A DNA stretch of 14,634 nucleotides from Candidatus Kaiserbacteria bacterium (GTDB taxonomy: Bacteria > Patescibacteria > Paceibacteria > UBA9973 > UBA2100), in contig NVTG01000026.1 in assembly GCA_002401495.1 (NCBI GenBank), positions 1-14,634 of the forward strand, read 5' to 3'. The notes below the pieces were generated by a model, which ran no database searches, was not told where the DNA came from, and saw nothing but the letters and a program-made list of their open reading frames with translations. Shown piece by piece: positions 2,094 to 14,593 of this stretch. Positions within the stretch are counted from its first letter, which is position 1. Each line of letters starts with the position of its first letter. The translations under genes were made by a program, and so were the position numbers.

Positions 2094-3313
2094 TTAATCT
2101 TCCTAATAAACTGGAGGGCGTTCTCAAGTATGTTTTAGAAAACCAATTTAGTAGCCTATATAGAGACCTATATTCTACTTCAGACGCTTCCTCCATCTCA
2201 AGCTGGAGTGAATTACCATTTCTAACAAAAGAACATCTTTTGAAAATACCTATCAAAGACAGAGTCTTTTTACCGTATGAAGAAGTCAGAATGATTCAGT
2301 CGACTTCTGGGACATCAGGTACTCCCTTTGTAACGCCGCGCGCAAATATACAACCGTTTAGTTCCTTTTTTAAAGAAATAAACAACGTCCAAGCAGTACT
2401 TGCCTTTACCCCTCCTCAGCATCGAATAATAGAAAGTCTTAGGAAAAGCAAACTAAGATCGCCTTTAATTGCGATCGACCCAATGCATTTGGATCGATCT
2501 GTTGCTATAGCGGCCAAGCTATCAGTTACGCATTTAATGTGTCCCTATCACCTGATAGAACTTTTGAAACCATCCATTGAAAAGTACGGCCTGCGAGAGA
2601 AATTTATTGCAATTATGCCGTTTGGAGCAAAAATTAGCCGCTCTATCTACAATGATTTACAAGATTACTTTCCAAATGCAACCGTATCTATAAATTATTC
2701 AGCTATTGAATTCCAGGGAATAGTTGGTAAGCAAGAAGCCAATTGGGATAATCCTTCTGAGTTTATACCAGCTAAAAATTGCTATCTAGAAATTATCGAC
2801 GACGAAGATAAGAATCTGACAAAGACTGATTCCGTCGGAGAAATAGTTATTACTACTTTAGATCCCAGTAATATAGCCACCCCCTTGCTGCGCTACAGAA
2901 CAGGCGATCTCGCTCGGATTATTAAATATTCTGAGAATAACGAAGAGTACCTCTTTGAAGTACTTGGTCGTAAGATAACTGAAAAAGTTGAACTCCTGAA
3001 TGGAGAACTTCAAGTTTATGAACTAGAAAAGGTACTAGAAGGAGTTGATCCAAAATTAAGTGACCATTTTCAATTACACGTCTATGAAAATCTGGAAAGC
3101 CGATCAAAAAAAGATTTGGTGCTACATGTAGTTAATGATAAAGAGTACTCTCCAAACATCACTAAAGAAAAACTAAGTTCTTATATTGGTGAAAATTTAC
3201 GAATTGCCTCAGGAAAAGTGTACGGCGAGGGAAACTACGGTAACATTGAAATAAAATGGGTTCCCAATTTTCCGCCTTCACCGGTAAAATTCAAAAAAAT
3301 AATCCTGCACTAA
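2084..3313 (+). CDS. PaaK-like adenylate-forming ligase (phenylacetate-CoA ligase family)
   Basis: A 409-aa member of the AMP-forming acyl/aryl-CoA ligase superfamily, closest in style to phenylacetate-CoA ligase (usual length about 430). Such enzymes activate a carboxylate with ATP to an acyl-AMP and then pass it to CoA or another acceptor. Seen: PaaK-type lead-in LPFLTKEHL, ATP-binding loop STSGTSGTP (73-81), adenine-binding motif NYSAIE (204-209), and LLRYRTGDLA (about 268-277) whose Asp binds the ribose. A C-terminal lid domain ends in KFKKIILH, giving a candidate catalytic Lys. The substrate cannot be read from sequence. It is the last gene of the operon, with a terminator 9 nt after its stop. 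Its last 23 nt overlap the end of the convergent permease gene. A start at 2063 would add 7 residues but leaves no ribosome binding site. Confidence 0.82.
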   Translation: MSMINLPNKLEGVLKYVLENQFSSLYRDLYSTSDASSISSWSELPFLTKEHLLKIPIKDRVFLPYEEVRMIQSTSGTSGTPFVTPRANIQPFSSFFKEINNVQAVLAFTPPQHRIIESLRKSKLRSPLIAIDPMHLDRSVAIAAKLSVTHLMCPYHLIELLKPSIEKYGLREKFIAIMPFGAKISRSIYNDLQDYFPNATVSINYSAIEFQGIVGKQEANWDNPSEFIPAKNCYLEIIDDEDKNLTKTDSVGEIVITTLDPSNIATPLLRYRTGDLARIIKYSENNEEYLFEVLGRKITEKVELLNGELQVYELEKVLEGVDPKLSDHFQLHVYENLESRSKKDLVLHVVNDKEYSPNITKEKLSSYIGENLRIASGKVYGEGNYGNIEIKWVPNFPPSPVKFKKIILH

Positions 3314-4184
3314 AAGAAAACCATCCCGAACCATTTCTGGTTCGGGATGACATTTTTCTAAGAACCTTTCTGAGGAACCAGCCGTATTCATCCGTAACAA
3401 TCTGAATAAAAATACCGGTGATTACATTACATAAAGCCATTGCTGTCGAAGCTACAAGAAATTCGGTTGCTTCATAGCTCTCGTGGCCATAAATGAAAAC
3501 CATTCTACCAATTCCAGGAGCTCCACCGATAACTACGGTTTCGCTTAAGACCAACAAGGGCCACATAATCAAGGAAGAAAGCCTCATTCCTGTTCGCAAA
3601 GCAGGCAGCGACAACGGAAATATTACCCAGATCAGTAATCGCATCTGCGACGCGAATTTTAAAGACAGAGCATCCGTTAAGTCTTTAGACATTGTTTTCT
3701 CTTTGCCGTCTAGAATATTTCCAACCAACATTCCTGTCGGCAAAAAGGTAATCATAAATGACACCCAAATATGGAAATAGGCTATCGTCGAAGCATCGAA
3801 ATCGTTGGCCATCGAAATAAATAGCAGGAACGCTATTTTTGGGTATGCAAATACCATTCCGAAAAAGAACCAAACGGTCAGTGAAAACGTGCGTGTCATC
3901 GACAAAATGACAGCGGCAAGATACCCCAAGGGGCATCCAACCAACAGTCCCCAGAGTATCTGTCTGGCACTAAAACCGACCTTGTGTAAAAGCTCCAGCC
4001 AGTTTAAGGAAACGTACCCAAAAACTTTTTGCGGTGAGGCGATCAAAACGTAGTCATAGTGTCCAGATTTCCAGCTGTAGAAAAATCCGCTCAAAACAAC
4101 TCCGATCAATAAAGCGTTAACTAAAACGCGGCATCGAGAGGAGAGTCTGGATTTTGTTAGAGCGATAGAAGTTACATGTCCCAT
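3291..4184 (-). CDS. ABC importer inner-membrane permease, NitT/TauT (SsuC/TauC-like) type
   Basis: A 297-aa permease that would form the membrane channel of a binding-protein-dependent importer. About six hydrophobic segments are visible (roughly 19-37, 74-95, 103-123, 135-155, 201-221, 242-262). The cytoplasmic EAA-type coupling loop lies at about 171-200 (DALSLKF, then IFPLSLPALRTGMRL), and GGAPGIGRMVF (220-230) matches the segment typical of the taurine/sulfonate/nitrate group. The ATG at 4184 has a perfect AGGAGG 8 nt upstream. The last 20 or so residues (from MSSRTR, 278 on) are encoded by the terminator hairpin and beyond, where the frame overlaps the ligase gene. A normal member would end near LRKVLRK, so this tail looks like a lost stop or a junction. 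The transported substrate is unknown. Confidence 0.85.
   Translation of the reverse strand: MGHVTSIALTKSRLSSRCRVLVNALLIGVVLSGFFYSWKSGHYDYVLIASPQKVFGYVSLNWLELLHKVGFSARQILWGLLVGCPLGYLAAVILSMTRTFSLTVWFFFGMVFAYPKIAFLLFISMANDFDASTIAYFHIWVSFMITFLPTGMLVGNILDGKEKTMSKDLTDALSLKFASQMRLLIWVIFPLSLPALRTGMRLSSLIMWPLLVLSETVVIGGAPGIGRMVFIYGHESYEATEFLVASTAMALCNVITGIFIQIVTDEYGWFLRKVLRKMSSRTRNGSGWFSFSAGLFF
3322..3349. terminator. Bidirectional intrinsic terminator between ligase and ABC permease
   Basis: A perfect 11-bp stem, CATCCCGAACC and GGTTCGGGATG, with a 6-base loop. On the minus strand it is followed by TTTTCTTTT; on the plus strand by the weaker ACATTTTTC. It serves the ligase operon, and probably the ABC cassette, although the permease reading frame continues through it to 3291. 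Confidence 0.8.
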
Positions 4185-4192
4185 TTCCAGAA

Positions 4193-4198
4193 CCTCCT
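4193..4198 (-). promoter_or_regulatory. Strong Shine-Dalgarno of the ABC permease
   Basis: A perfect AGGAGG, 8 nt before ATG 4184. It is one of three purine-rich ribosome binding sites confined to the ABC cassette, unlike most other genes of the window. Confidence 0.8.
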
Positions 4199-4238
4199 GA
4201 CGTGAACAAGTGAAGCAATAGTGCTTCTTCTATTTTCG

Positions 4239-4244
4239 AGTATA
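4239..4244 (-). promoter_or_regulatory. Possible -10 element for a separate permease transcript
   Basis: TATACT lies between the ATPase terminator and the permease. The best upstream hexamer, TGTCGG at 16 bp, is poor and falls in the terminator stem. It would give a leader of about 47 nt including the Shine-Dalgarno. Weak evidence. Confidence 0.25.
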
Positions 4245-4252
4245 ACAAAGTT

Positions 4253-4286
4253 AAAAAAAACCGACACCCCTTTTATTGAGATGCCG
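4253..4286 (-). terminator. Intrinsic terminator overlapping the end of the ABC ATPase gene
   Basis: On the minus strand CGGCATC (4280-4286, inside the last codons of the ATPase) can pair with GGTGTCG (4262-4268), a 7-bp stem with two G-U pairs, followed after one G by eight T (4253-4260). The T-run is excellent but the stem is moderate, so read-through into the permease is plausible. Confidence 0.55.
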
Positions 4287-5298
4287 ATAATCTACGACCA
4301 GTACGGAAATCGAACATTAACTGCTGCTCTTCTTTCCACCCAAATGAAATCGTATCCCCGGAGCAAATTTTAGAATCTCCGTTGATTTGTATCAGTATGG
4401 GCTCAGGCATTTCCTGAAGCTGTACTGATATCATTCGATCTTGATCAGGGCCGAGATCTGTAATCAGCGTTACTGTCCCTGAATAATTTTTATCAAGGAC
4501 CGCTGCCACATACATGTCTCTTGGACGTACCCCAATAATGCACTTCTTTCCTCCAAATACATTCAGAGGACCGAAGACCTTAGCGGTCGCTAGGGTCTGG
4601 GGATCTTTTTCAATGAAAGAGGGTGTTCCAACTTGGACCATCTCGCCCTCCTCCATTACACCAACTCTATCCGCCAGCAAATATGCATGCCTCACATTGT
4701 GTGTGACATATATTGAAATTGCTGGAGGATTCGATTTTTGGTGTAAAGATTTTAGAGACCGACAAAGTCGCTCACTACGATCATTATCCAAACTGGCGAA
4801 TGGCTCGTCAAATAGCCAAACGCTTGGAGGATTCTCTGAGAAACGAGCTATGAGCAAACGTGCTAAAGCGACGCGCTGCTTTTCACCGCCAGATAAATCT
4901 TTGACTGGACGTCTCAAAAGATCGCTTATATCGAGTTGCTCCACAACTTCTTTCAAGCTAAGTTGGTCAGCGGGGTTCGATCTAAACCGTAGGGCCTTAT
5001 CCCCCAACCCCAGTAGTATGTTTCTCTCTACAGAAAGAGTGGGTATTAGACCAAATCCTTGCTGCATTAGATTAACACTTCTTTCAAATGGCTTTTCTTC
5101 TTTCAAATCAGAGCCGTTCAAAAGTATTTTCCCGGAATAGTCTCTTTCGAGACCAGAGATTAGACGTAGTAGTGTAGACTTGCCCGCACCTGAAACTCCC
5201 AGGATGCAAAAGAGCTCTCCTTGGGGTATTTCCAGATTAAGATCGTGTACCACGGGAACACCATCGTACGTCTTACTTACTGATTGTAATATCAACAT
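4273..5298 (-). CDS. ABC importer ATPase with C-terminal TOBE domain
   Basis: A 341-aa cytoplasmic ATP-hydrolysing subunit that would power the adjacent importer. All motifs are intact: Walker A GVSGAGKST (34-42), Q-loop Gln79/80, signature LSGGEKQ (135-141), Walker B VWLFDEP (160-166), D-loop SLD (169-171) and switch His200 (VTH). Residues from about 253 carry a regulatory OB-fold/TOBE-like extension beginning IIGVRPRDMYV, as in MalK/PotA/FbpC-type ATPases. Taurine/nitrate-type ATPases (about 255 aa) normally lack it, so the pairing with a TauC-like permease is unusual. ATG 5298 has AAAGGAGG with 8 nt from AGGAGG to the start. A terminator precedes the gene and another overlaps its end. Substrate unknown. 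Confidence 0.92.
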   Translation of the reverse strand: MLILQSVSKTYDGVPVVHDLNLEIPQGELFCILGVSGAGKSTLLRLISGLERDYSGKILLNGSDLKEEKPFERSVNLMQQGFGLIPTLSVERNILLGLGDKALRFRSNPADQLSLKEVVEQLDISDLLRRPVKDLSGGEKQRVALARLLIARFSENPPSVWLFDEPFASLDNDRSERLCRSLKSLHQKSNPPAISIYVTHNVRHAYLLADRVGVMEEGEMVQVGTPSFIEKDPQTLATAKVFGPLNVFGGKKCIIGVRPRDMYVAAVLDKNYSGTVTLITDLGPDQDRMISVQLQEMPEPILIQINGDSKICSGDTISFGWKEEQQLMFDFRTGRRLSASQ

Positions 5299-5306
5299 CT
5301 TTTCGT

Positions 5307-5312
5307 CCTCCT
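5307..5312 (-). promoter_or_regulatory. Strong Shine-Dalgarno of the ABC ATPase
   Basis: AGGAGG within AAAGGAGGA, 8 nt before ATG 5298. This is the same spacing as for the permease. Confidence 0.8.
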
Positions 5313-5350
5313 TTGGTACGAAGTTACAATTTTCCTACCTTAGATAGTAC

Positions 5351-5393
5351 TAAAATATAAAAAAATAGGAAGCGATTTACACCGCTTCCTATT
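5351..5393 (-). terminator. Intrinsic terminator after the ABC binding-protein gene
   Basis: A perfect 11-bp stem (5364-5374 with 5383-5393; AATAGGAAGCG and CGCTTCCTATT on the plus strand) with an 8-base loop, followed on the minus strand by a T-rich tract (5351-5363). It begins 17 nt after the binding-protein stop. It should make the binding protein more abundant than the ATPase and permease, a common arrangement in importers. Confidence 0.85.
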
Positions 5394-5410
5394 AAAGTTT
5401 CGTCGAAAAC

Positions 5411-6592
5411 CTATTCGCAGATAACTGCAAGTTCCGAAAGAAACGAGACCTTCGCTTCTGGATCAGATGGAACCGGTGGTAACCGAAGCCAGGTGGCCAG
5501 ATTTTCCAATCCATCCCTTTTGAAACAACCATTGCCAGCATCCCACATTTCCACGAGCCGAGTAACGCGAGACCTGGTAGGGTCCAGTAGAATGACGCTT
5601 TTGTCATCTGATACACGAAGTGAACCCAAAAAGCTTTTAGAGTTCTCTGTGACCTCAGACATGACATCTGAAATCATAGAATCTACCGGCTTCGAGGCTG
5701 CATCCGTCAACAGTTGAATCAGGCGTTCAATTTTTGCCCGAAAAATCGGATCTTCCAAATTGTCCGCCCACACAAGGGCCGCCATATGAGGCGTTGTAGG
5801 CCACTGATTTGGCGCTACCATTATGCTGTATCCGGTGTCTGCCAGTCGAATTGCTCTTTCATAGGACAGCATGGCAAATTGCACCACGCCCTTTTCCAAA
5901 GCCACTTGTCTGGCGGAACTTTTCCGCATGCCAACCAGGTAGATAGTTTCTTCCTTGTCCTTGGCAGTGGCTTGGTCTGAATCTTTTTGTCCAAGCCACA
6001 CCCTAACACCAGGAAAAGTTTCCCGCAGCATAGCGCCCAGAACTTCTACTGGATGCGCAGGATTACCAGGTCCCAAAGGCCCTGAAGATGCCAACATACC
6101 GCCTTCGTCAATTCTGGTTACGGCGATGGTATTCCCAGACAGAGTAGAAAGATCAAACTTGGATCCTGCTTTGCCGACCAAGGCCTGCTGCAGTCTGTTT
6201 CCATTAGCCCAAACCAACTCGGCGTGAGATGGAAGCAATTCAAGTCCGTCTTTAGAATCTGCCTTCAGTTCCGCTTCCCATTTCACCAGGCCGGAAAGAA
6301 CTTCAACCCCACTTAACGTGACATCAAAAAGGCACTTTTTCATGCCAACTTCTTTTTGACCTACATTGAAAAGTTCAACGACCTCTATGTCGAGATCATA
6401 TCTTTCAGCGTTTTCCGGAGAAAGCGCCTGTCTTGGAACATAGCTGAACCCGAAGTTGGGCCAGCTCTCAATTTTCAGGTGCGTTGGATCTGAAATGTTC
6501 GGGCACTGCGCTGCCGTAGCCACGTATGGAAATATCCCACACATTAGCACAGCAACAGCAGCGGCCCTCTTTGTTAAGGTACTCATGTTCAT
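5411..6592 (-). CDS. Secreted substrate-binding protein of the ABC importer (NMT1/SsuA-like)
   Basis: A 393-aa exported protein that would capture the substrate outside the membrane and deliver it to the permease. Residues 1-28 form a classical signal peptide: Thr-Lys-Arg start, an Ala/Val-rich core and an ATAA cleavage region before Gln29-Cys30. A lipobox is not evident. The mature part begins with a first strand (LKIESWPNFGFSY) as in taurine/nitrate/thiamin-precursor binding proteins, followed by DIEVVELF and a VTLSGVEVL segment typical of that two-lobed fold. The later lobe has IAVTRIDEGGM and VVQFAMLSYERAIRL. Family assignment rests on these and on the neighbouring ABC genes. The ATG at 6592 is preferred over the one at 6586 because AAAGGG is 6 nt upstream. 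It is first in the cassette and has its own terminator. Confidence 0.78.
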   Translation of the reverse strand: MNMSTLTKRAAAVAVLMCGIFPYVATAAQCPNISDPTHLKIESWPNFGFSYVPRQALSPENAERYDLDIEVVELFNVGQKEVGMKKCLFDVTLSGVEVLSGLVKWEAELKADSKDGLELLPSHAELVWANGNRLQQALVGKAGSKFDLSTLSGNTIAVTRIDEGGMLASSGPLGPGNPAHPVEVLGAMLRETFPGVRVWLGQKDSDQATAKDKEETIYLVGMRKSSARQVALEKGVVQFAMLSYERAIRLADTGYSIMVAPNQWPTTPHMAALVWADNLEDPIFRAKIERLIQLLTDAASKPVDSMISDVMSEVTENSKSFLGSLRVSDDKSVILLDPTRSRVTRLVEMWDAGNGCFKRDGLENLATWLRLPPVPSDPEAKVSFLSELAVICE

Positions 6593-6672: not shown

Positions 6673-8274
6673 ATGATGAGGTACCAAAAAAAATTGACCT
6701 GCATTGCACTTTTTTTGCTTACTCTAAGTGGTTTATTTTTAATGCTACATTTATTTCTGAACCTCCCTAGTTATAATGGTGACGGCCTTTCAAGATATAG
6801 GGTTTTGGCACTACAAGACCCTGTTTTGTCGTTACCGAGCACAGACCTTAAGTCTCTAGATACTGGGATTGAAGCCCTGTCTGACAGCATCCGCTTATAT
6901 TCTAAATACTATGGAGAGGACAGAACTCGGGTTGAGAATTATCTGTACCCTACCAACTTTCTAGAAACACTGTCCTTTACTGAATCTGCTCGTCAGAAAT
7001 TGATACACTCTGAGAGGGTCACGTACAAAGACGCACTCAAATATCACAAAGCCCTACAGTTTTCTTTGAAGCAATATAAAGTGGACATCCAAAATACAAT
7101 TAACCAATTGTCCTCGTTTGGTGATATAAATCTGGGATTTTTAAATGGTATAACATCTACTGATTTTCTAGTGCAGCAGCTTCTAGTTGCAAAGAATAAT
7201 GCGTCAGAGAAACAGCTCCTTGATAATCTTAGATTTGACTGTATAAAGAACGATCATTTACGATGTGGCCAACCTGATCTAGGTGGTAAAAATGTGGAGG
7301 TTAGGGATTTAACACCTGGAGACCAAGCGGTAAGCCCAGAAGTGTTCCAGTATAACCAGGTGGTAAACGACATAGAGTCAATCTCTGTAGACCAACAAAA
7401 TCCCTTGGTCATACACGTAGAAACTTACTGTTACGGTGAGGGCGACTCATTGATTGCATACAAAGTATGGGAGCGCCCTTCTCGCATTAGCGGTATTCCG
7501 GTGGTTGAGCAAACTATTATTAATGACATATTCCTAAAAAAAGCACCCGCTAATTCTACAGATGAATATCTCGCAGGCCTTTCTGAGGACGGCCTATCTC
7601 TTGCGCTTCATTACGTCTCACCTTACTTTTGTACCGATTACGGCCTAGATGCTGGAATTAATCAAACTTCAATTGAGCTAGTTAGACTCCTAAGGAAAAC
7701 CCCCGTCTTTTCAACAATTATCAGTGGTCCTTTCGAAAAGATTGCCTTCCTAGAAAGAAATGTACTCAACAATAACTCAACAATAGACGTTGAACAGTTA
7801 AATGAGTATGTTCGCTTTTTGGAAACAGAACTTGAAGAGAACGAAATTCTTCTGCAAATGGATCTAGGAGAAGATCTTGTGCGAACAATGTATGAATATA
7901 TAACTTTATGGAACTCTAAAAGTGCCGATTTTGACCTTAGTATAGGACTCTTAGAAGATACCGCCTTCACTAACATAAAGGTATTGGCAAATATTAAAAT
8001 ACCTGTCGCCCCTCTCTTTATGACGCGCGGTTATCTTTCGACTGTGTTTTTGCTTAATAATACAACTCTACATACTCAGCCCATAAGCTTGATACATAAG
8101 AAATTTGACACAGAAAACTACATAGATAACTTCTCCATACTTTCATACAAAAACAACGTGGAGCTTCAAAAAGAAATTCCATTAGAGGAGCTAGCCCAAA
8201 CCATAATCAAAGAGCGTTCCAAAAGTCGCCTACTATTAATAGAAGAGTACCCTTCTTTATATATCTATAAATAG
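6673..8274 (+). CDS. Membrane-anchored protein of unknown function (533 aa)
   Basis: Not recognised. Basic N-terminal residues and one hydrophobic helix at about 8-30 predict an N-terminal anchor or uncleaved signal, with the remaining 500 residues outside the membrane. Residues about 55-190 look mostly alpha-helical. A stretch from about 205 to 330 looks mixed or beta-rich and holds three of the six Cys (Cys198 lies just before it, in DHLRCGQPDLGG). Cys190/Cys198 and Cys253/Cys320 could form disulfides. Acidic helical segments at about 370-430 (ETELEENEILLQMDL) follow. No enzyme motif is visible. The sulfatase-fold gene starts 16 nt downstream on the same strand, so a shared role at the cell surface is plausible. 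No Shine-Dalgarno precedes the ATG; ATG-ATG at 6673/6676 leaves the start uncertain by one residue. GC is low (row 7081-7140 is 21/60), like the region 6 operon and unlike the preceding ABC cassette. Confidence 0.75.
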   Translation: MMRYQKKLTCIALFLLTLSGLFLMLHLFLNLPSYNGDGLSRYRVLALQDPVLSLPSTDLKSLDTGIEALSDSIRLYSKYYGEDRTRVENYLYPTNFLETLSFTESARQKLIHSERVTYKDALKYHKALQFSLKQYKVDIQNTINQLSSFGDINLGFLNGITSTDFLVQQLLVAKNNASEKQLLDNLRFDCIKNDHLRCGQPDLGGKNVEVRDLTPGDQAVSPEVFQYNQVVNDIESISVDQQNPLVIHVETYCYGEGDSLIAYKVWERPSRISGIPVVEQTIINDIFLKKAPANSTDEYLAGLSEDGLSLALHYVSPYFCTDYGLDAGINQTSIELVRLLRKTPVFSTIISGPFEKIAFLERNVLNNNSTIDVEQLNEYVRFLETELEENEILLQMDLGEDLVRTMYEYITLWNSKSADFDLSIGLLEDTAFTNIKVLANIKIPVAPLFMTRGYLSTVFLLNNTTLHTQPISLIHKKFDTENYIDNFSILSYKNNVELQKEIPLEELAQTIIKERSKSRLLLIEEYPSLYIYK

Positions 8275-8290: not shown

Positions 8291-9694
8291 ATGAAATATG
8301 TATACATAGCATTGGCAGTAATACTTATAATTATCTCCGCCAAAGGTGTTCAATACTTGGAAAGCAATAACGGCACTGTGGCTGATTTCGAATGTGACAA
8401 ATGCAATGTTGTAATCATTGGGTTTGATGCCCTACAAGCAAGACACGTAAGTCACTTGGGATATTCAAGACAAACAACCCCCACGATTGATCTGTTAGCT
8501 AAAAAAGGAATTAGTTTTTCTCATAACTACTCAGTAGCCTCTTGGACAGTGCCTTCTTTCATGTCCTACTTTACTTCCCTATATCCATCTGAACATAAAG
8601 TCACAAATAAATTTGTGACTTTCCAGGGAGATACAAAGGTTCTCTCCAATCTGAAAAAACTTTCTCCTGATGTTCTAACTATAGCTGAGGCATTTAAAAA
8701 TTCTGGATACATCACAGGAGGGTTTACCGGCGATGCCGGTGTTCACTCAAACTTTGGATACTCCCAAGGCTTTGATGTATATACTGATGAATCTGTATTT
8801 GGATCAATCGATAACAGCAGCAATCATGCGCTGAATTGGCTAGATCAAAATCCAGAAAAGCCCTTCTTTATGTTCCTCCACGGATATGATGCGCATGGCC
8901 AATTTAGCGGTGTAGACGAAAACTATCGTTCTAAGTTTACAGATAAGCCAGAGTTTGAAATTACTCCTGAAAGGCAACGGGACTTAAGAGAAGAAGGCCT
9001 GGCCTACGGCCAAATTCTAGTGAGCTCAAGTGAACTAGAAGAATGGAATGCTTGGTACGACGGTAAAATATACGACGCGGATCAACGCATTAAGAAGTTC
9101 CTGGGAGGATTGGAAACGAGAGGACTATTGGAGAATACAGTTATCATTGTTATTTCTGATCATGGAACAGAAATTGGCGAGCATCGTAGATTCGATCATG
9201 GATATAGTCTCTATAATGAACTTATAAACGTTCCCTTAGTAATAACACTGCCAAATAAGGAAATTGGAGAAATTATTGATGTGCATGTACGTAGTATCGA
9301 CCTGGTTCCTACTATTTTCGATATTATAGGAATTGAGTATACGAAGGAGTGGAAAGATCAAATACGAGGGGAAAGTTTACTTCCAATAATAAGTGGAAAC
9401 CGTACTGAAAACTTACCTGTGTTCTCGGAGACTGACTACCGTAATTACACACATAAAAGATCTTATATAAGTCCCGATAACTGGAAATACATACACACCA
9501 TGGAAACCGACTCCGGAGAGTTATACAACTTAACTGCAGATGCAGAAGAGTATAACAATATTATGGAAACAGAAGAAGAGCGTACTAAGGATATGAAAGC
9601 AGAATTATTTAAACATCTTGCCAAGATGGGAGAAGACATAGCAGATGAATGGCCGATTGGCTGTCTGCCAGTTTACGCCGATCAGTGCCTCTAG
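8291..9694 (+). CDS. Membrane-anchored sulfatase-fold hydrolase/transferase with Thr nucleophile position
   Basis: A 467-aa enzyme of the alkaline phosphatase superfamily (sulfatase/phosphodiesterase/phosphoglycerol transferase group). Residues 4-22 form a membrane anchor or signal. The metal-site motifs are FDAL (Asp46), GYDAHG (His202), SDHG (Asp290, His291), GEH, and FDHG (Asp302, His303). The nucleophile motif reads SWTVPSF with Thr86 where a true sulfatase has the Cys or Ser converted to formylglycine. Thr fits LtaS-like or other phosphate-ester enzymes, so 'sulfatase' names the fold only. TSLYPSEHKV follows as usual. A Cys pair C35-x-x-C38 precedes the first core strand and another pair (458, 466) ends the protein. 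It probably acts outside the membrane on a surface polymer or lipid; substrate unknown. The stop is shared with the convergent paralogue. Confidence 0.88.
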   Translation: MKYVYIALAVILIIISAKGVQYLESNNGTVADFECDKCNVVIIGFDALQARHVSHLGYSRQTTPTIDLLAKKGISFSHNYSVASWTVPSFMSYFTSLYPSEHKVTNKFVTFQGDTKVLSNLKKLSPDVLTIAEAFKNSGYITGGFTGDAGVHSNFGYSQGFDVYTDESVFGSIDNSSNHALNWLDQNPEKPFFMFLHGYDAHGQFSGVDENYRSKFTDKPEFEITPERQRDLREEGLAYGQILVSSSELEEWNAWYDGKIYDADQRIKKFLGGLETRGLLENTVIIVISDHGTEIGEHRRFDHGYSLYNELINVPLVITLPNKEIGEIIDVHVRSIDLVPTIFDIIGIEYTKEWKDQIRGESLLPIISGNRTENLPVFSETDYRNYTHKRSYISPDNWKYIHTMETDSGELYNLTADAEEYNNIMETEEERTKDMKAELFKHLAKMGEDIADEWPIGCLPVYADQCL

Positions 9695-11262
9695 TAGTAA
9701 GGTAATATATCTCCCTTATATTTTACTTCTTTAACTGACTCCAATTGTCTAGAAAGCCACTCTTCTAAATCTATCCTCAGGGATTCTGCTATTTCAGTAT
9801 TTTGTAAATACACATTATTTTGCTCCTGAGGATCAATAAGTAAATTGTATAGTTCATATTCCTCTATCTCATCCTCAGCCCCACTTATCTTTCTCCACCA
9901 GCCATACTTCATCTGAACATCCCGACTTACCCTCCAAACTAGCTTCCAGTTATTTTTTATAGCGCCAACATCATAAACTAGCTGATTTTTATCAATCTTT
10001 TTAAATTCAACATACGGGTCCAGCAGTTTCTTGTCTAGCTCCTTCTCTTTTGCTGAGTCTATCTTTGAATAGTTAGGTGCCAGATGTTCCCAGAGTGGGA
10101 TCCTTGTAGAATAGATTGTTCTATCCTCAAATCCCCCAGAGGACCCACCTTTAATCAAGGGGCGCAAACTTAATCCTTTTGCTTGCTGTGCTGGAGAAAA
10201 ATCCAAATAATCCAATACCGTGGGGAGAATATCAATGGAGCCTACTGAAGATTCCACTCTCTTTGGTTTTTGCCCAGGGATTTTAATAATTAAAGGAGAG
10301 TGGATTGTAGTATTATAAATATCGTAGTGTGCATAATATCCATGCTCTCCCAACTCTTCTCCATGCTCTGAATGAAAAATGATTATTGTATTTTTATGTA
10401 ACCCTTCTTTTTTTAACAAGTCAAAAAAGTTTCCTATGTATAAGTCTGTTTTCACTATATTTGCAACATAGGCATTTTCTAAATACTCTTTATCAGATTT
10501 CTCTAGATCCCTCTCTATTTCACCCAAGGAAGTAATAGACCAAACTTTATCATTATAAATTTTACGCAGATGGTTACTCCAACTCAGGCTAGACCCTTTC
10601 AAAAAACCACTGTACTCCTTTTTGCCCGGGAAATCCCCTTCTGCATAAGGCCAGTGTACAGTTCCTATTGTGAGCCACATAAAAAATGGATCTTTAGTAT
10701 TGGCCTTGTCCTCTATCCATGAAAAGGGCGCTTCCGTCTCGTCTCTAAAGGTTCGCCCCCATGTTTGTAACTCTTCAGTACTATACTCAGTGTAGTACTC
10801 ATCAAATCCTCTCTGAAAGTTTTCTCTCATTCCAACGGAAAAATGGAAAAACTCTGGAGAAGACCCAAGCGCAACGGTCTTTAATCCTCCTGCTTTTAAA
10901 TATTCAGCCATCATTTTAAATTTTTCAGGGAGTACGCTGTTAAATCTTGTAACCCCGCTTTCAATTGGATGCAAGGAAGTGTGCGCTACCGTTTCAGAGA
11001 TTGGCGTTAAAAAAGCTTGATTATAATATTTATCAAATATTACCGCTTTTTTTGCCCACTTATCTATATTGGGAGTAGAATTCTTTTTATAACCATATAG
11101 TCCCATCCTATCCGCCCTTAAGCTATCGACTGATATCAATATTACGTTACAAGACGGAGGACATTCCGCCCCTAATGAAGAGCGATTTATAAGTGCATAA
11201 TAAAAAACGGGTGAAAAAAGGAAGCCCAAGAGCACATACTTAAGATAACTATTTATTTTCAT
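9691..11262 (-). CDS. Second membrane-anchored sulfatase-fold enzyme, convergent paralogue
   Basis: A 523-aa enzyme of the same superfamily with an N-terminal anchor at about 8-26. Core motifs: VDSLRAD (Asp46), nucleophile region FLTPISE with Thr86 at the same residue number as in the paralogue, TSLHPIESGV, TVHWPY (His203), HSEHGEELGEHG (Glu299, His300, His307) and AHYD (His312). The metal-binding Asp of SDHG is Glu here (SEHG), and the Pro after the Thr is shifted by one (T-P-I-S against T-V-P-S). This suggests different metal tuning or substrate. Cys34/Cys38 precede the first strand as a CPPSC loop. It is separated by 112 nt from the copper-type operon upstream and has its own extended -10; no Shine-Dalgarno. 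Probably extracytoplasmic; substrate unknown. Confidence 0.88.
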   Translation of the reverse strand: MKINSYLKYVLLGFLFSPVFYYALINRSSLGAECPPSCNVILISVDSLRADRMGLYGYKKNSTPNIDKWAKKAVIFDKYYNQAFLTPISETVAHTSLHPIESGVTRFNSVLPEKFKMMAEYLKAGGLKTVALGSSPEFFHFSVGMRENFQRGFDEYYTEYSTEELQTWGRTFRDETEAPFSWIEDKANTKDPFFMWLTIGTVHWPYAEGDFPGKKEYSGFLKGSSLSWSNHLRKIYNDKVWSITSLGEIERDLEKSDKEYLENAYVANIVKTDLYIGNFFDLLKKEGLHKNTIIIFHSEHGEELGEHGYYAHYDIYNTTIHSPLIIKIPGQKPKRVESSVGSIDILPTVLDYLDFSPAQQAKGLSLRPLIKGGSSGGFEDRTIYSTRIPLWEHLAPNYSKIDSAKEKELDKKLLDPYVEFKKIDKNQLVYDVGAIKNNWKLVWRVSRDVQMKYGWWRKISGAEDEIEEYELYNLLIDPQEQNNVYLQNTEIAESLRIDLEEWLSRQLESVKEVKYKGDILPYY

Positions 11263-11374: not shown

Positions 11375-11902
11375 TTATTCTGAACGTCCAAGAAATTTCT
11401 TCCTGAAAATATAACCAATTAGCAACAAGAAGCTAAAAAAACCGTATAGTATTACTGAGTTATGGTTCTCATCAGCTATTCCCTTTTCAACCTCTAAAGG
11501 AAAAGTTGCTTCAGCTACACTGTCTCCATTATTTTGAAACCTAGCGGAAAGTGTATATTGCCCAGCTTCTGGAAACCTATACGTCATGGTAGCCCCCCCG
11601 AATTTTGCATTATAAACTCCTGTTGCGAATACCGTAGATTTGTCTCTAACAATACGAACCCAAACATCAGTAAAAGTAATTGGTGAGGCGTCTTCGTCTA
11701 ACATTGTAAAATTAAAAACCACTGACGAATCTTCCGTGAAGGTCTCCGTATTATATCCAATATCGATCAACGCATCTCCATCCTGTTGTTCAAAAGAAGA
11801 GCCAGTACCGTGTGCATAGGCTGTCATAATGCTTAGTAACAAAACTCCTGTTGTAATAACTATACTAAATGTTACGTAAATGATTCCTTTGTGTATGATC
11901 AT
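11375..11902 (-). CDS. Exported YtkA/CopC-like beta-sandwich protein with His at the predicted mature N-terminus
   Basis: A 175-aa membrane-tethered protein. A signal peptide covers residues about 1-30 and ends in TAYA, so signal peptidase I would expose His31 as residue 1 (HGTGSSFE). An N-terminal His is how CopC-type copper carriers and other copper-brace proteins bind copper. The 100-residue body is rich in alternating beta pattern with an Ig-like MTYRFPEAGQYTLSARF segment (106-122) as in YtkA/FixH-like domains. A second hydrophobic helix at about 149-166 followed by RKKF anchors the C-terminus. It is the last of four tightly spaced genes, 5 nt after the cupredoxin stop, with no Shine-Dalgarno. 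Copper binding is inference, and the YtkA-like assignment is by eye. Confidence 0.7.
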   Translation of the reverse strand: MIIHKGIIYVTFSIVITTGVLLLSIMTAYAHGTGSSFEQQDGDALIDIGYNTETFTEDSSVVFNFTMLDEDASPITFTDVWVRIVRDKSTVFATGVYNAKFGGATMTYRFPEAGQYTLSARFQNNGDSVAEATFPLEVEKGIADENHNSVILYGFFSFLLLIGYIFRKKFLGRSE

Positions 11903-11907
11903 AATAT

Positions 11908-12312
11908 TTATTTTACTATGATAACACCCGTATAATATGGCGCTAGATGATCGTGGAACCTCCAGGCTCCACGATCATCAAAGATAAAACTCCACTTGTC
12001 TACAGATTTAATAGGATCACGAGGGTCAAATTCGGAATATATACTATGTGTTGGATGTATATTTGATGCAGGCCAATGGAATTTATAATACTCAGGATCT
12101 GCAGAAAACGTTATCCGATCTCCGGCTAAAATAGTTATCTCAGAGGGATCGTAACCCTCTTTAGTAAGAGATATAGAATATTCTGCTCCTTCAATCTCTA
12201 TGCGATCCTCTTCTAGCAGTAAGATGTCTTGGCTTCTATTATTATTCACTAGTAAAAAGACAAGTATTACTAGTAATACAGCTATTAATAATGTTCGTAT
12301 ATTATATTTCAT
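11908..12312 (-). CDS. Membrane-anchored cupredoxin-fold protein lacking the type 1 copper Cys
   Basis: A 134-aa protein with an N-terminal hydrophobic anchor (about 7-22) and one cupredoxin domain outside the membrane. Fold markers: YDPSEITILAGDRITFSA (54-71), the region around His79 in FHWPASN, His86 and His89 (IHPTH), SFIFDDRGAWRFHDH (108-122) and a closing strand TGVIIV. In blue copper proteins the strand after G-x-W/Y-x-F/Y carries the Cys ligand. There is no Cys at all here, and His120/His122 occupy that place, so a type 2-like or non-blue copper site, or another metal, is more likely than an electron-transfer type 1 site. It follows the second repeat protein by 12 nt and precedes the YtkA-like gene by 5 nt, without Shine-Dalgarno, so it is co-transcribed. 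Confidence 0.82.
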   Translation of the reverse strand: MKYNIRTLLIAVLLVILVFLLVNNNRSQDILLLEEDRIEIEGAEYSISLTKEGYDPSEITILAGDRITFSADPEYYKFHWPASNIHPTHSIYSEFDPRDPIKSVDKWSFIFDDRGAWRFHDHLAPYYTGVIIVK

Positions 12313-12324
12313 AAAAAATGTTAA

Positions 12325-13560
12325 TTACAAATTATAAAATGGAATTATGTGTGTCTCGCTACTATCTAAACATTTGGTTTTCCACTTAAGAGGAAGAATG
12401 CCGCAAAAGTCTCCATGCTCACTTGACCCAAAAGTATAATTATAAGATGAATAAAAAAGTAATTCCTGGTAGCACAATTTAGAAACTTCTTCTGAATCAC
12501 TTATTTCACAAATTTCTACAGCTTTTTCAGCCAACTTGTAATCTACCTCAAGGAAACGAGAAGCAGAGTTTGCATAACACTGTGCCTTTACTGGATCACT
12601 AACATACGAACATATTTCCCTTACTTTGTTCACATCAAAATCTATAAGGGCTGCTGCAATATAAAATATACCATTGAGACACCTGGTTCTATCTTGATTG
12701 GAAAAGTCCTTGTCACAAAATCCTTCTATAGCCCCAAGCTCTCCGGCAAGATCACTCTTAAACAAGGGGTGCGTCTCAATGTAGCATGACGTGCGGGGCG
12801 CTCCAGAAAAACGAGAGCAATACTTAATAGCCTCTTCTTTTGTTGTGGGCGCTATGTCTTGAACCAAGGCAACGTCTTCTGGCCCTAGGGTTTGAAATAT
12901 CTGCATGAATAATCCGTCGTAACATAAGCTTCTGAAATCTTTTTCTTCGCCTACTAATACGCTATCACACACATACAAAGATCGATCCACATCAGCATTT
13001 GTTATATACATCGTTAAGTGACCTAATGCATGATAGCAGCTGGCCTGCTCTAGCCTGGTAAAATCTCTATTGTTTTTGCTTTTCTTGCAAATTTCTTTTA
13101 TCTCAGGAATAAGGTCTTCCATTTCTTTTTCACTAATAGCTGAGCCCCTAAACCTTTCTTGGAATGCTCCGTGTAGAGAACCATTAGAACACATGCCTCT
13201 GGGAGACCGAGCCACCACCTCTGTCCACCTTGAAACATCTTTAGCAGTTTCTTTTGCACTTAAATTATGCCCAAGGACATGACAATACCAATAAGAGTCA
13301 TCCTGCTGTTGGATTAGGTCAGTTATTAGAAAGGCTTCTTCAAATGAAAATCCCCTATCCATTACTTTGGGTATCTCCTCATCATAACAAGAGGGCTTAT
13401 GATCCTCATCTTCGCAAATTTTCAGTATTGATTCTGCTTCTTTTAGCAAAACAGAGTCTACCTTAATTACATTTGCAAAGAGCAAGAATCCAAGAATTAT
13501 AAAGATAGCCGCACTTATAAAAAATGTGTTTGATTTTATCTTAGTTTGAATTTGTACCAT
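12325..13560 (-). CDS. Exported Cys-pair/His-Gly helical repeat protein, paralogue B
   Basis: An unrecognised 411-aa protein with an N-terminal hydrophobic anchor (about 12-28). The body is made of helical repeats: 18 Cys, of which the C-terminal ten form five pairs 11-12 residues apart (248/259, 282/294, 317/328, 351/363, 386/397) recurring every 34-35 residues. Second-Cys motifs are CHVLGH (93), CSNGSLHG (124), CYHALGH (175), CYDGLF (213), CYIETH (259), CLNGIF (294). The architecture recalls disulfide-stapled Sel1/TPR-like repeats such as the Helicobacter Hcp proteins, though there the Cys spacing differs. The His-rich N-terminal repeats could bind metal. ATG 13560 is chosen over 13620: it puts the anchor near the N-terminus and limits overlap with the upstream gene to 20 nt. 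Confidence 0.72.
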   Translation of the reverse strand: MVQIQTKIKSNTFFISAAIFIILGFLLFANVIKVDSVLLKEAESILKICEDEDHKPSCYDEEIPKVMDRGFSFEEAFLITDLIQQQDDSYWYCHVLGHNLSAKETAKDVSRWTEVVARSPRGMCSNGSLHGAFQERFRGSAISEKEMEDLIPEIKEICKKSKNNRDFTRLEQASCYHALGHLTMYITNADVDRSLYVCDSVLVGEEKDFRSLCYDGLFMQIFQTLGPEDVALVQDIAPTTKEEAIKYCSRFSGAPRTSCYIETHPLFKSDLAGELGAIEGFCDKDFSNQDRTRCLNGIFYIAAALIDFDVNKVREICSYVSDPVKAQCYANSASRFLEVDYKLAEKAVEICEISDSEEVSKLCYQELLFYSSYNYTFGSSEHGDFCGILPLKWKTKCLDSSETHIIPFYNL

Positions 13561-14593
13561 ATGTAAACGTATATAAGGAAAGGTTATAGAAATTATTGCA
13601 TTCAACTTTAGAGTTATCAAGTAATCTGTCGCATACTTCTGGCGCTAAACTTCTGTATTCAGGATTAGAAAACATACTCCACGCTACACCAGCATGGCAC
13701 ATACTGATAACATTTTCTGCCATTTTAAAACATGTGTTTGAACTTTCATCAGCATTGTATTCACTCCGAACACCAATCATATCCCCTAGCCCCAGGGAAC
13801 AAGAATCTCTTAACTGCTTGTCTTGTATCTTGGAGCACAGTTCTCCCATCTTTACCCTGTCTCCTTGCAGGACCACCTCCCACCAACCACCAAGTTCGTA
13901 ATAACAAGACGGTTTATACTTATCTAGGACGTTTTTACATTCAGCATAAGGGCTTTTTTTAGTAAACTTATAAGGGTCTGGTACCTCCCCATCAATTGAG
14001 AATGAAGAAGGAGTATTGTGCTCCATGAAGACCCCTGAAGTACACCCAAGAAGTGGGGTTAACTGTGATGTATTTTCACACAATTCTAAAGCCTGCTTTA
14101 GATTATTTACGCCTAAATACTCTACGATACCGTGCCCAATTCCGTGCTGGCACCCAGCACCCATAACGCCATATTGTTCAACACACACATCAGTCGCCAC
14201 TTTGATAAATTCCGTTCCTAAACTTGAAAACCCTATTGTAAACAACCCATGAAAGCATCCAAATCCAAAACTTGAATCGCATACGCTTACTCCGGAAACT
14301 CCTTCATGTTCGAAAATCAACTCTCCTATTATATGAGCTCTGAGATGTCTAATTCCAAAAGATGTTGAAACATTTTGTTCAACAAAGTAACTATAGGCCT
14401 TTAGCGAGCCGTCTTCCAATATTAGATCTCTAAGATAATTTTTATCCTCCGAAGGTTTATAGCTATCGATTTCAAAAATTGGTTCATGACTTTTGTCGTT
14501 CTGAACAAAAATCGGTGCTAATGAGAGCAAGAGTAATATTGGTGCTAAAAAAAGTATTGTTCTTATTGAATTTTTATAATTGCGTTTCTGCAT
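13541..14593 (-). CDS. Exported Cys-pair/His-Gly helical repeat protein, paralogue A
   Basis: An unrecognised 350-aa protein with anchor or signal at about 11-29. All 14 Cys fall into seven pairs: 105/113, 137/148, 172/184, 219/230, 253/265, 288/299, 321/332. Spacing is 11-12 apart from the first pair (8), and the second Cys recurs every 33-36 residues except one 46-residue step. After the second Cys come CFHGLF (113), CQHGIGHG (148), CTSGVFMEH (184), CYYELGGWW (230), CSLGLGD (265), CHAGVAW (299) and CNNFY (332), so His concentrates in the N-terminal repeats. This suggests an alpha-solenoid with one disulfide per repeat and perhaps a metal or ligand site. It is the first gene of the four-gene operon. 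The ATG at 14593 fits the anchor; a GTG at 14617 would add 8 polar residues. Confidence 0.75.
   Translation of the reverse strand: MQKRNYKNSIRTILFLAPILLLLSLAPIFVQNDKSHEPIFEIDSYKPSEDKNYLRDLILEDGSLKAYSYFVEQNVSTSFGIRHLRAHIIGELIFEHEGVSGVSVCDSSFGFGCFHGLFTIGFSSLGTEFIKVATDVCVEQYGVMGAGCQHGIGHGIVEYLGVNNLKQALELCENTSQLTPLLGCTSGVFMEHNTPSSFSIDGEVPDPYKFTKKSPYAECKNVLDKYKPSCYYELGGWWEVVLQGDRVKMGELCSKIQDKQLRDSCSLGLGDMIGVRSEYNADESSNTCFKMAENVISMCHAGVAWSMFSNPEYRSLAPEVCDRLLDNSKVECNNFYNLSLYTFTYGTNSN

Follow-up and report, generated by a model that had tools for sequence, protein, structure and literature searches.

The 14,634 nucleotide (nt) stretch of DNA analyzed here (the window) covers positions 1 to 14,634 of contig NVTG01000026.1 from Candidatus Kaiserbacteria bacterium (assembly GCA_002401495.1) and carries, near its end, two overlapping minus strand genes encoding paralogous proteins, A (13541..14593, 350 amino acids (aa) from its ATG) and B (12325..13560, 411 aa from its ATG). 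We propose that A and B belong to a complex which handles a metal, most likely copper, outside the cytoplasm; we assign a probability of roughly 0.48 to this reading, which builds on the family, its conservation, the predicted fold, the operon and domain fusions. Its core is a set of five invariant histidines (His) in the first repeats of both proteins, which look like a metal site and very probably bind metal. Given metal binding, copper would be the likelier metal, and a hand-over of the metal is more likely than catalysis. The initial annotation of this stretch was made from the single sequence; what the present comparison adds is the membership of the pair in a gene cluster which comprises four subfamilies and contains cupredoxins.

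In A, each of H83, H87, H115, H150 and H154 is present in 120/120 rows of the alignment, and no other column exceeds 30% His. The same degree of conservation (all five in 120/120 rows) was found for H94, H98, H130, H177 and H181 of B, and for H184, H188, H219, H258 and H262 in the solenoid part of a further subfamily, D. Each alignment includes the query and consists of the best 120 of 231 (A), 498 (B) or 331 (D) sequences. The five His are arranged in the motifs HxxxH, HG and CxHGxGH in the N-terminal half of A and B, with some A members carrying HE where others carry HG; according to the alignment columns, they span 14132..14347 in A and 13018..13281 in B, both on the minus strand. The earlier claim that C-x-H-G-x-G-H-G-like clusters occur only in the N-terminal repeats holds for C-x-H-G and C-x-H-G-x-G-H motifs (His 83–154 in A, 94–181 in B), and of the earlier idea of a His-lined metal or ligand site, a conserved His site is supported; the C-terminal half of A is devoid of any column of conserved His. 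Among the members of at least 250 aa from the gene clusters described below, a set which partly overlaps the 120-row alignments, all five His, counted by alignment columns, are kept in 34/34 A, 34/36 B, 22/22 C and 38/40 D proteins (128/132 in total). Of the four exceptions, one is ended by the end of its contig, one is partly unread and two D proteins show a true loss of either two or all five His. The D-like member with 0/5 His (L006:4644-5699, plus strand) is possibly a non-binding subunit within a cluster of intact members.

The spacing of these residues follows the repeats. In A, H115 and H150 are found two residues past the second cysteine (Cys) of successive repeats (C113, C148), H154 six past C148, and M190 six past C184 in the next repeat. 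The same offsets apply in B to H130 and Q134 (from column 128), H177 and H181 (from C175) and M219 (from C213), and in D to H219 and E223 (from a Phe), H258 and H262 (from C256) and N306 (from C300). Equal offsets in successive repeats suggest that the conserved residues would line one face of the stacked helices, ladder-like. The last row of this putative ladder is Met-Glu in A (M190 in 120/120 rows, E191 in 119/120), in C (22/22) and in the Gemmatimonadota members (17/17), and Met-Gln in B (M219 and Q220, 120/120; Q134 is also kept in 120/120); D has Asn in this row (N306, 120/120) and a Glu two rows earlier (E223, 119/120). Thus, a conserved Glu accompanies the five His in A, C, D and the Gemmatimonadota members, and a Gln in B.

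Such invariance of the whole set, including the neighboring residues (M190/E191 in A; Q134, M219 and Q220 in B; E223 and N306 in D), looks catalytic rather than sequestering, and a catalytic metalloenzyme would explain the invariant neighbors better than metal hand-over does. HxxxH / H / HxxxH together with Glu, Gln or Met would then build a mono- or dinuclear copper (or iron) centre, which binds or reduces O2 or a small oxidant with the cupredoxin as partner, and which would be like hemocyanin/tyrosinase or hemerythrin without being a member of these families. Preservation of the site in each of the four subfamilies is in line with this, and so is the failure to find heme-copper oxidase subunit I in 18/23 carriers of the family. 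Type 3 copper proteins and hemerythrins carry HxxxH pairs on helices plus a single His, as do A and B, and hemocyanins are multi-paralogue oligomers; in hemerythrin, five His plus carboxylates hold a diiron centre; here, five His are joined by Glu in A, C, D and the Gemmatimonadota members and by Gln in B. Excerpts of PMC4364613 describe an HxxxH arrangement around CuB. However, A and B are putative solenoids rather than helical bundles and show no sequence match to these proteins. Type 3 copper membership was rejected, as there are five invariant His rather than six and no Pfam match to tyrosinase/hemocyanin; hemerythrin membership was likewise rejected due to a missing Pfam match. No recurring electron donor, dehydrogenase or quinone gene was recognized in the clusters (many neighbors are unassigned), and the cupredoxin lacks a type 1 site. 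We consider a catalytic function rather unlikely.

The Cys pattern of both proteins points to a regularly stapled structure. According to the initial annotation, all 14 Cys of A (105, 113, 137, 148, 172, 184, 219, 230, 253, 265, 288, 299, 321, 332) form pairs about 11–12 residues apart, which repeat every 33–36 residues. This is correct for six of seven consecutive pairs (the remaining pair is spaced 8) and for four of six intervals between pair starts (32, 35, 47, 34, 35, 33), with 32 and 47 falling outside. For B, with 18 Cys (49, 58, 93, 124, 158, 175, 198, 213, 248, 259, 282, 294, 317, 328, 351, 363, 386, 397), “most” turned out to be a slim majority: 5/9 pairs (10/18 Cys) are spaced 11–12, the others 9, 31, 17 and 15. 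When the same number of Cys was placed at random between residue 36 and the end, an equal number of 11–12 gaps was reached in 0/20000 trials for A and in 49/20000 for B. In the A alignment, 120/120 rows have Cys in each of the 14 columns, and in that of B 18/20 Cys columns hold Cys in roughly 99% of rows or more. The remaining B columns 119 and 128 (both Ser in the B protein of the window) contain both Cys in 92/120 rows, neither in 28/120 and a mixed state in 0 (p = 5.7e-28, uncorrected for kinship), and are, hence, kept or lost as a unit, the behavior a disulfide pair would give. That the Cys behave as pairs is thus borne out in A by invariance and in B by joint loss, and most of the approximately 35-residue helical repeats of A and B are probably stapled by one predicted disulfide each. 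DsbA-like thioredoxin genes were seen in some of the fetched stretches (L018:9594-10313, L018:13187-13933, L019:13857-14585, L025:3-587; the first of these was checked with Pfam), and their presence near clusters fits a need for disulfide formation.

The fold of A was predicted with AlphaFold2 using the 120 rows. The model has a mean predicted local distance difference test (pLDDT) value of 91.4, a predicted template modeling (pTM) score of 0.84, 18 helices and no strand, and begins with a hydrophobic helix. Hence, A is predicted with high model confidence to be an all-helical solenoid behind an N-terminal hydrophobic anchor, which supports an exported or membrane-anchored alpha-solenoid, the exported solenoid having been proposed earlier. 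In five of seven A pairs (137/148, 172/184, 253/265, 288/299, 321/332), the first Cys is at most 4 residues from a helix end and the second at most 6 from the start of the next helix; read from helix boundaries rather than from distances, this placement in the model is as expected for hairpin staples. Compared to solved folds (Foldseek, VIA), the A model shows a general solenoid likeness only and no close match. Hcp (Sel1-like) proteins also consist of helical repeats, each about 35 residues long and with a Cys pair of its own, and the spacing, invariance and paired loss of the Cys here would fit the one disulfide per repeat of Hcp. However, the five-His motifs and cupredoxin partners are additional here, and a kinship with Sel1 found no support, as A and B have no Sel1 match in Pfam; Sel1-like/Hcp membership was rejected because neither the two proteins nor their 120 rows each match this repeat family by sequence.

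Protein databases were searched for relatives of A and B. Profile comparison of the two proteins gave an hhalign probability of 98.7% (E = 2.3e-16, 252 columns); on this sequence comparison, A and B are distant paralogues, as had been stated for the tandem copies, and both frames lie where they had been placed. No significant match was found for A or B in Pfam, NCBIfam or PDB sequences, with no Pfam family at E ≤ 1, so the earlier failure to recognize a named family is confirmed. With a threshold of E ≤ 0.01, Pfam applied to both sets of 120 rows (A and B) yielded a single unrelated match, ARMET_N (1/120 A rows, E = 6.5e-4), which was set aside as chance; the same applies to matches of B to tryptophan-dioxygenase (E = 0.13) and pancreatic lipase (E = 0.85). 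At E ≤ 0.001, 231 A-like and 498 B-like proteins were detected, and these sets may overlap. No paper on this family was found in the open-access literature searched, which leaves most subscription journals outside. Thus, the five-His solenoid matched nothing searched, but exported, cupredoxin-partnered, metal-binding helical proteins are already known in the form of EfeO.

A genome scan recovered 33 loci, 26 of which belong to Patescibacteria by title, six are named “bacterium” only and one is from Gemmatimonadetes; the Patescibacteria loci span Parcubacteria/Paceibacteria lines, Microgenomates, Doudnabacteria and others. The loci carry tandem related genes, 136 frames in four groups including the two of the window (D 42, B 36, A 35, C 23). 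A tree built from 74 sampled cores recovers A, B and D as one clade each (support 97/85, 100/100 and 97/52, the last being weak), while two changes are required for C, accompanied by long-branch warnings. As the A, B and D clades each hold several Patescibacteria lineages, the four subfamilies look old. A mobile-element origin was not indicated: a DNA search gave no match in plasmids, B had none in phages and A none in viral contigs, the exceptions being one distant match on a Gemmatirosa megaplasmid and one on a Kitasatospora plasmid.

The most informative genomic context is the link to cupredoxins. A and B are followed on the minus strand by the gene of a membrane-anchored, cupredoxin-like single domain without Cys (family c1, 11908..12312, 134 aa) and by that of an exported Ig-like protein (family c3, 11375..11902, 175 aa), which has a C-terminal hydrophobic segment; both c1 and c3 are recurrent partners. 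The c1 domain gave a weak match to Cupredoxin_1 (E = 0.0014, under Pfam's cut-off), but its family profile matches amicyanin (E = 5.6e-10), and we assign it to the cupredoxin fold. HPxH (H86, H89) and HxH (H120, H122) are kept in 12/12 c1 members; 11/12 have no Cys, and in the twelfth both of its two Cys lie away from the ligand position. The ligand Cys in the amicyanin loop aligns with Asp in c1 (Asn in some members), which sets c1 apart from amicyanin and plastocyanin. Since the His-Cys-His(-Met) ligands are absent, c1 was rejected as a type 1 (blue) copper protein; on its sequence, c1 may plausibly hold a metal by His residues alone, whereas a type 1 copper site is implausible. Cupredoxins of candidate phyla radiation bacteria are mentioned as possible NirK donors in excerpts of PMC5581439 and PMC12931201.

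Of 33 stretches analyzed (the window and 32 loci with flanks of at most 8 kb on each side), 29 encode a cupredoxin of either the c1 or a second type, as a protein of its own or as part of the solenoid protein, and three of the four cupredoxin-free stretches were ended near the solenoid gene by the end of the contig. In 20 stretches it is fused to the solenoid, mostly to D (frames longer than 300 aa, read from the list), and 26/42 D frames carry the motif. The second type, c2 (often with GxYGYxCD), was seen in 9/33 stretches, among them L013:5138-5623, L019:910-1503 and L025:1034-1543; this count includes one D member with such a domain C-terminally (L012:10058-11506). Co-occurrence was examined in 379 Patescibacteria genomes, 22 of which match the A profile (E ≤ 1e-5) and 151 the cupredoxin: the latter is present in 19/22 A-profile genomes vs. 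132/357 others (odds ratio 10.8, p = 5e-6, uncorrected for kinship), where some of the cupredoxin matches are the fusions themselves. Leaving out the central genome of the draw, which had been chosen for carrying the family, gives p = 1.1e-5. The c3 partner is found in 15/33 stretches, and in 10/10 aligned members a His directly follows the signal-peptide-like stretch (H31 in the window), which would be the predicted mature N-terminus. Some copper proteins, e.g., CopC, characteristically start with His in their mature form.

Fusions and gene order also bear on the proposed heteromer. Beside cupredoxin-core-core fusions (L017, L023), a 792 aa C-B fusion was found (L027; C-like with 494 bits at 11–422, B-like from 425 on), and these speak for physical association. 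The most frequent same-strand neighbor pairs less than 100 nt apart are A-B (10), D-B (10), C-A (9) and D-D (9); in the ten A-B pairs, B follows A with a gap of −20 to 35 nt, corresponding to 9 of 21 places having both. The heteromer idea, which had been based on the tandem copies, gains from the fusions and from this recurring order, and A and B would then bind each other.

Fusion of a cupredoxin to a helical domain also leads to the alternative that the proteins serve EfeO-like iron uptake or oxidation, with a cupredoxin and a helical metal-binding domain collecting Fe2+ at the cell surface. The model of a D fusion protein (L024; pLDDT 92.7, pTM 0.88) shows a plastocyanin-fold domain at approximately 36–126, followed by a helical domain, and its top Foldseek match is EfeO (E = 3e-5). 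In EfeO, a component of the EfeUOB iron system, an N-terminal cupredoxin is likewise joined to a helical imelysin (M75) domain (PMC9174327, in part). Like EfeO, D is exported and has the cupredoxin joined N-terminally to an all-helical domain, with an HxxxE located between the two HxxxH pairs; the window's own A and B have no cupredoxin. However, the template modeling (TM) scores over the whole length are only 0.16 and 0.22, so the match concerns mainly the cupredoxin. EfeO/M75 membership was rejected, as no M75 domain was found: among Pfam families at E ≤ 1, the one D protein scanned (L024) matches Cupredoxin_1 alone, and A and B match none. Moreover, a solenoid with regular Cys pairs, a five-His set and several paralogues differs from EfeO, the EfeU/FTR1 permease was detected in only 2/23 carriers searched, and His/Met-rich loops point to copper instead. 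An iron function appears improbable.

The family also extends beyond Patescibacteria. A relative is present in 51/249 Gemmatimonadota genomes, as a single gene in 15/16 fetched stretches; the five-His motif is found in 17/17 members of these 16 stretches, and by eye 9/15 members show a His/Met-rich loop past the last row. The Kitasatospora plasmid member has all five His plus Met-Gln as in B. In this one instance, the next gene downstream encodes Caa3_CtaG (E = 7e-74), a protein that helps to insert copper into cytochrome oxidase. Concerning respiration, heme-copper oxidase subunit I was detected in 5/23 carriers vs. 1/22 non-carriers (the next in the list, not matched); this oxidase is not required for carrying the family.

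A different explanation gives the His a structural role, or one in binding heme or an organic ligand, and takes the proteins for scaffolds with which episymbiotic bacteria adhere or contact a host. Large exported repeat proteins often serve as scaffolds, and the absence of conserved His columns from the C-terminal half of A is in agreement with such a role, as is the description of Patescibacteria as epibiotic in part of PMC12931201. On the other hand, the five His are kept as a set at ligand-like spacings, also in Gemmatimonadota and Kitasatospora, and the solenoid is fused to cupredoxins; we regard this explanation as hardly probable.

Several observations weigh against a copper-handling complex. 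Without the type 1 Cys, c1 is not an ordinary copper electron carrier, and no c1 cupredoxin was seen in 3/22 carrier genomes. Ten neighbor proteins, one from each of ten clusters present at two or more places, were scanned: RpiB, Rpe and transketolase (pentose-phosphate), a surface Ig-like protein, a weak glycosyltransferase match and five without family. Hence, no transporter was recognized among these ten recurrent neighbors, five of which have no Pfam family. In Gemmatimonadota, outside the core gene, no neighbor cluster occurs in more than 2/16 stretches, the three widest clusters (9, 4 and 3 stretches) being frames which overlap the core gene. Ten neighbors scanned there (8/16 stretches) look unrelated and have no copper link: MFS-M23, PMT, DinB, luciferase-like, glutamine synthetase, DeoC, DUF4440/SnoaL and three without family. 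Finally, Caa3_CtaG was found in 0/23 Patescibacteria carriers searched, so that the Kitasatospora link is a single instance not transferable to Patescibacteria. Together with the rarity of FTR1, this result weakens the iron alternative and slightly weakens copper handling as well.

The four genes A, B, c1 and c3 form a tight run, with which the minus strand of the window ends. The ATG of B is located 20 nt inside the end of A, and an open TTG start for B is also present farther upstream; the gaps downstream of B are 12 nt (to c1) and 5 nt (from c1 to c3). The run may continue upstream past the window edge, because the record containing A has 25,454 bases. Promoter and terminator scans gave scores no better than those of shuffled sequences. 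Elsewhere in the window, a 533 aa protein without Pfam family is encoded at 6673-8274 (plus strand); with its relatives (cluster c4) at seven mapped places including the window, it is possibly one more recurrent neighbor. Convergent genes at 8291-9694 (plus strand) and 9691-11262 (minus strand) encode alkaline-phosphatase/sulfatase-superfamily proteins with N-terminal hydrophobic segments, in neither of which a clear Cys/Ser-x-Pro-x-Arg formylglycine motif was seen by eye. An ATP-binding cassette importer set (permease, ATPase and substrate-binding protein, by appearance) occupies 3291-6592 (minus strand). In two of the other loci, the same gene pair (c24/c25) lies inside the cluster (L013:9212-10647, L027:9013-10466); the L013 pair has no Pfam family.

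As the proposed metal-handling complex, A and B would be membrane-anchored extracytoplasmic alpha-solenoids, whose helical repeats of about 35 residues would mostly be stapled by one disulfide each. The first repeats would carry the five-His metal site, aided by a conserved carboxylate, amide or thioether (Glu, Gln, Met, Asn) at fixed repeat positions. Together with their paralogues C and D and with separate or fused cupredoxin domains, A and B would join to an extracellular hetero-oligomer, in which copper may be captured and exchanged between the His-only site of the cupredoxin and the five-His sites of the solenoids. A more far-reaching version, which we regard as rather unlikely, is that these extracellular, multi-paralogue proteins make up a new copper (or di-metal) class, defined by a disulfide-stapled solenoid whose successive repeats bear an HxxxH / H(E,Q) / HxxxH / M(E,Q) ladder of ligands at fixed positions; four subfamilies and His-only cupredoxins would then assemble into a complex that reacts with O2 or relays metal.

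Although the family comprises hundreds of members, neither an entry in Pfam or NCBIfam nor a relative with a solved structure was found for A or B. Organisms with small genomes spend many kilobases on several copies of it, and such strict conservation of a residue set clearly shows selection for a function. If copper is bound at the site, the family would point to a surface metal economy, perhaps with oxygen or electron chemistry, in Patescibacteria; if the new class were true, some ultra-small bacteria would possess a cell-surface metalloenzyme.

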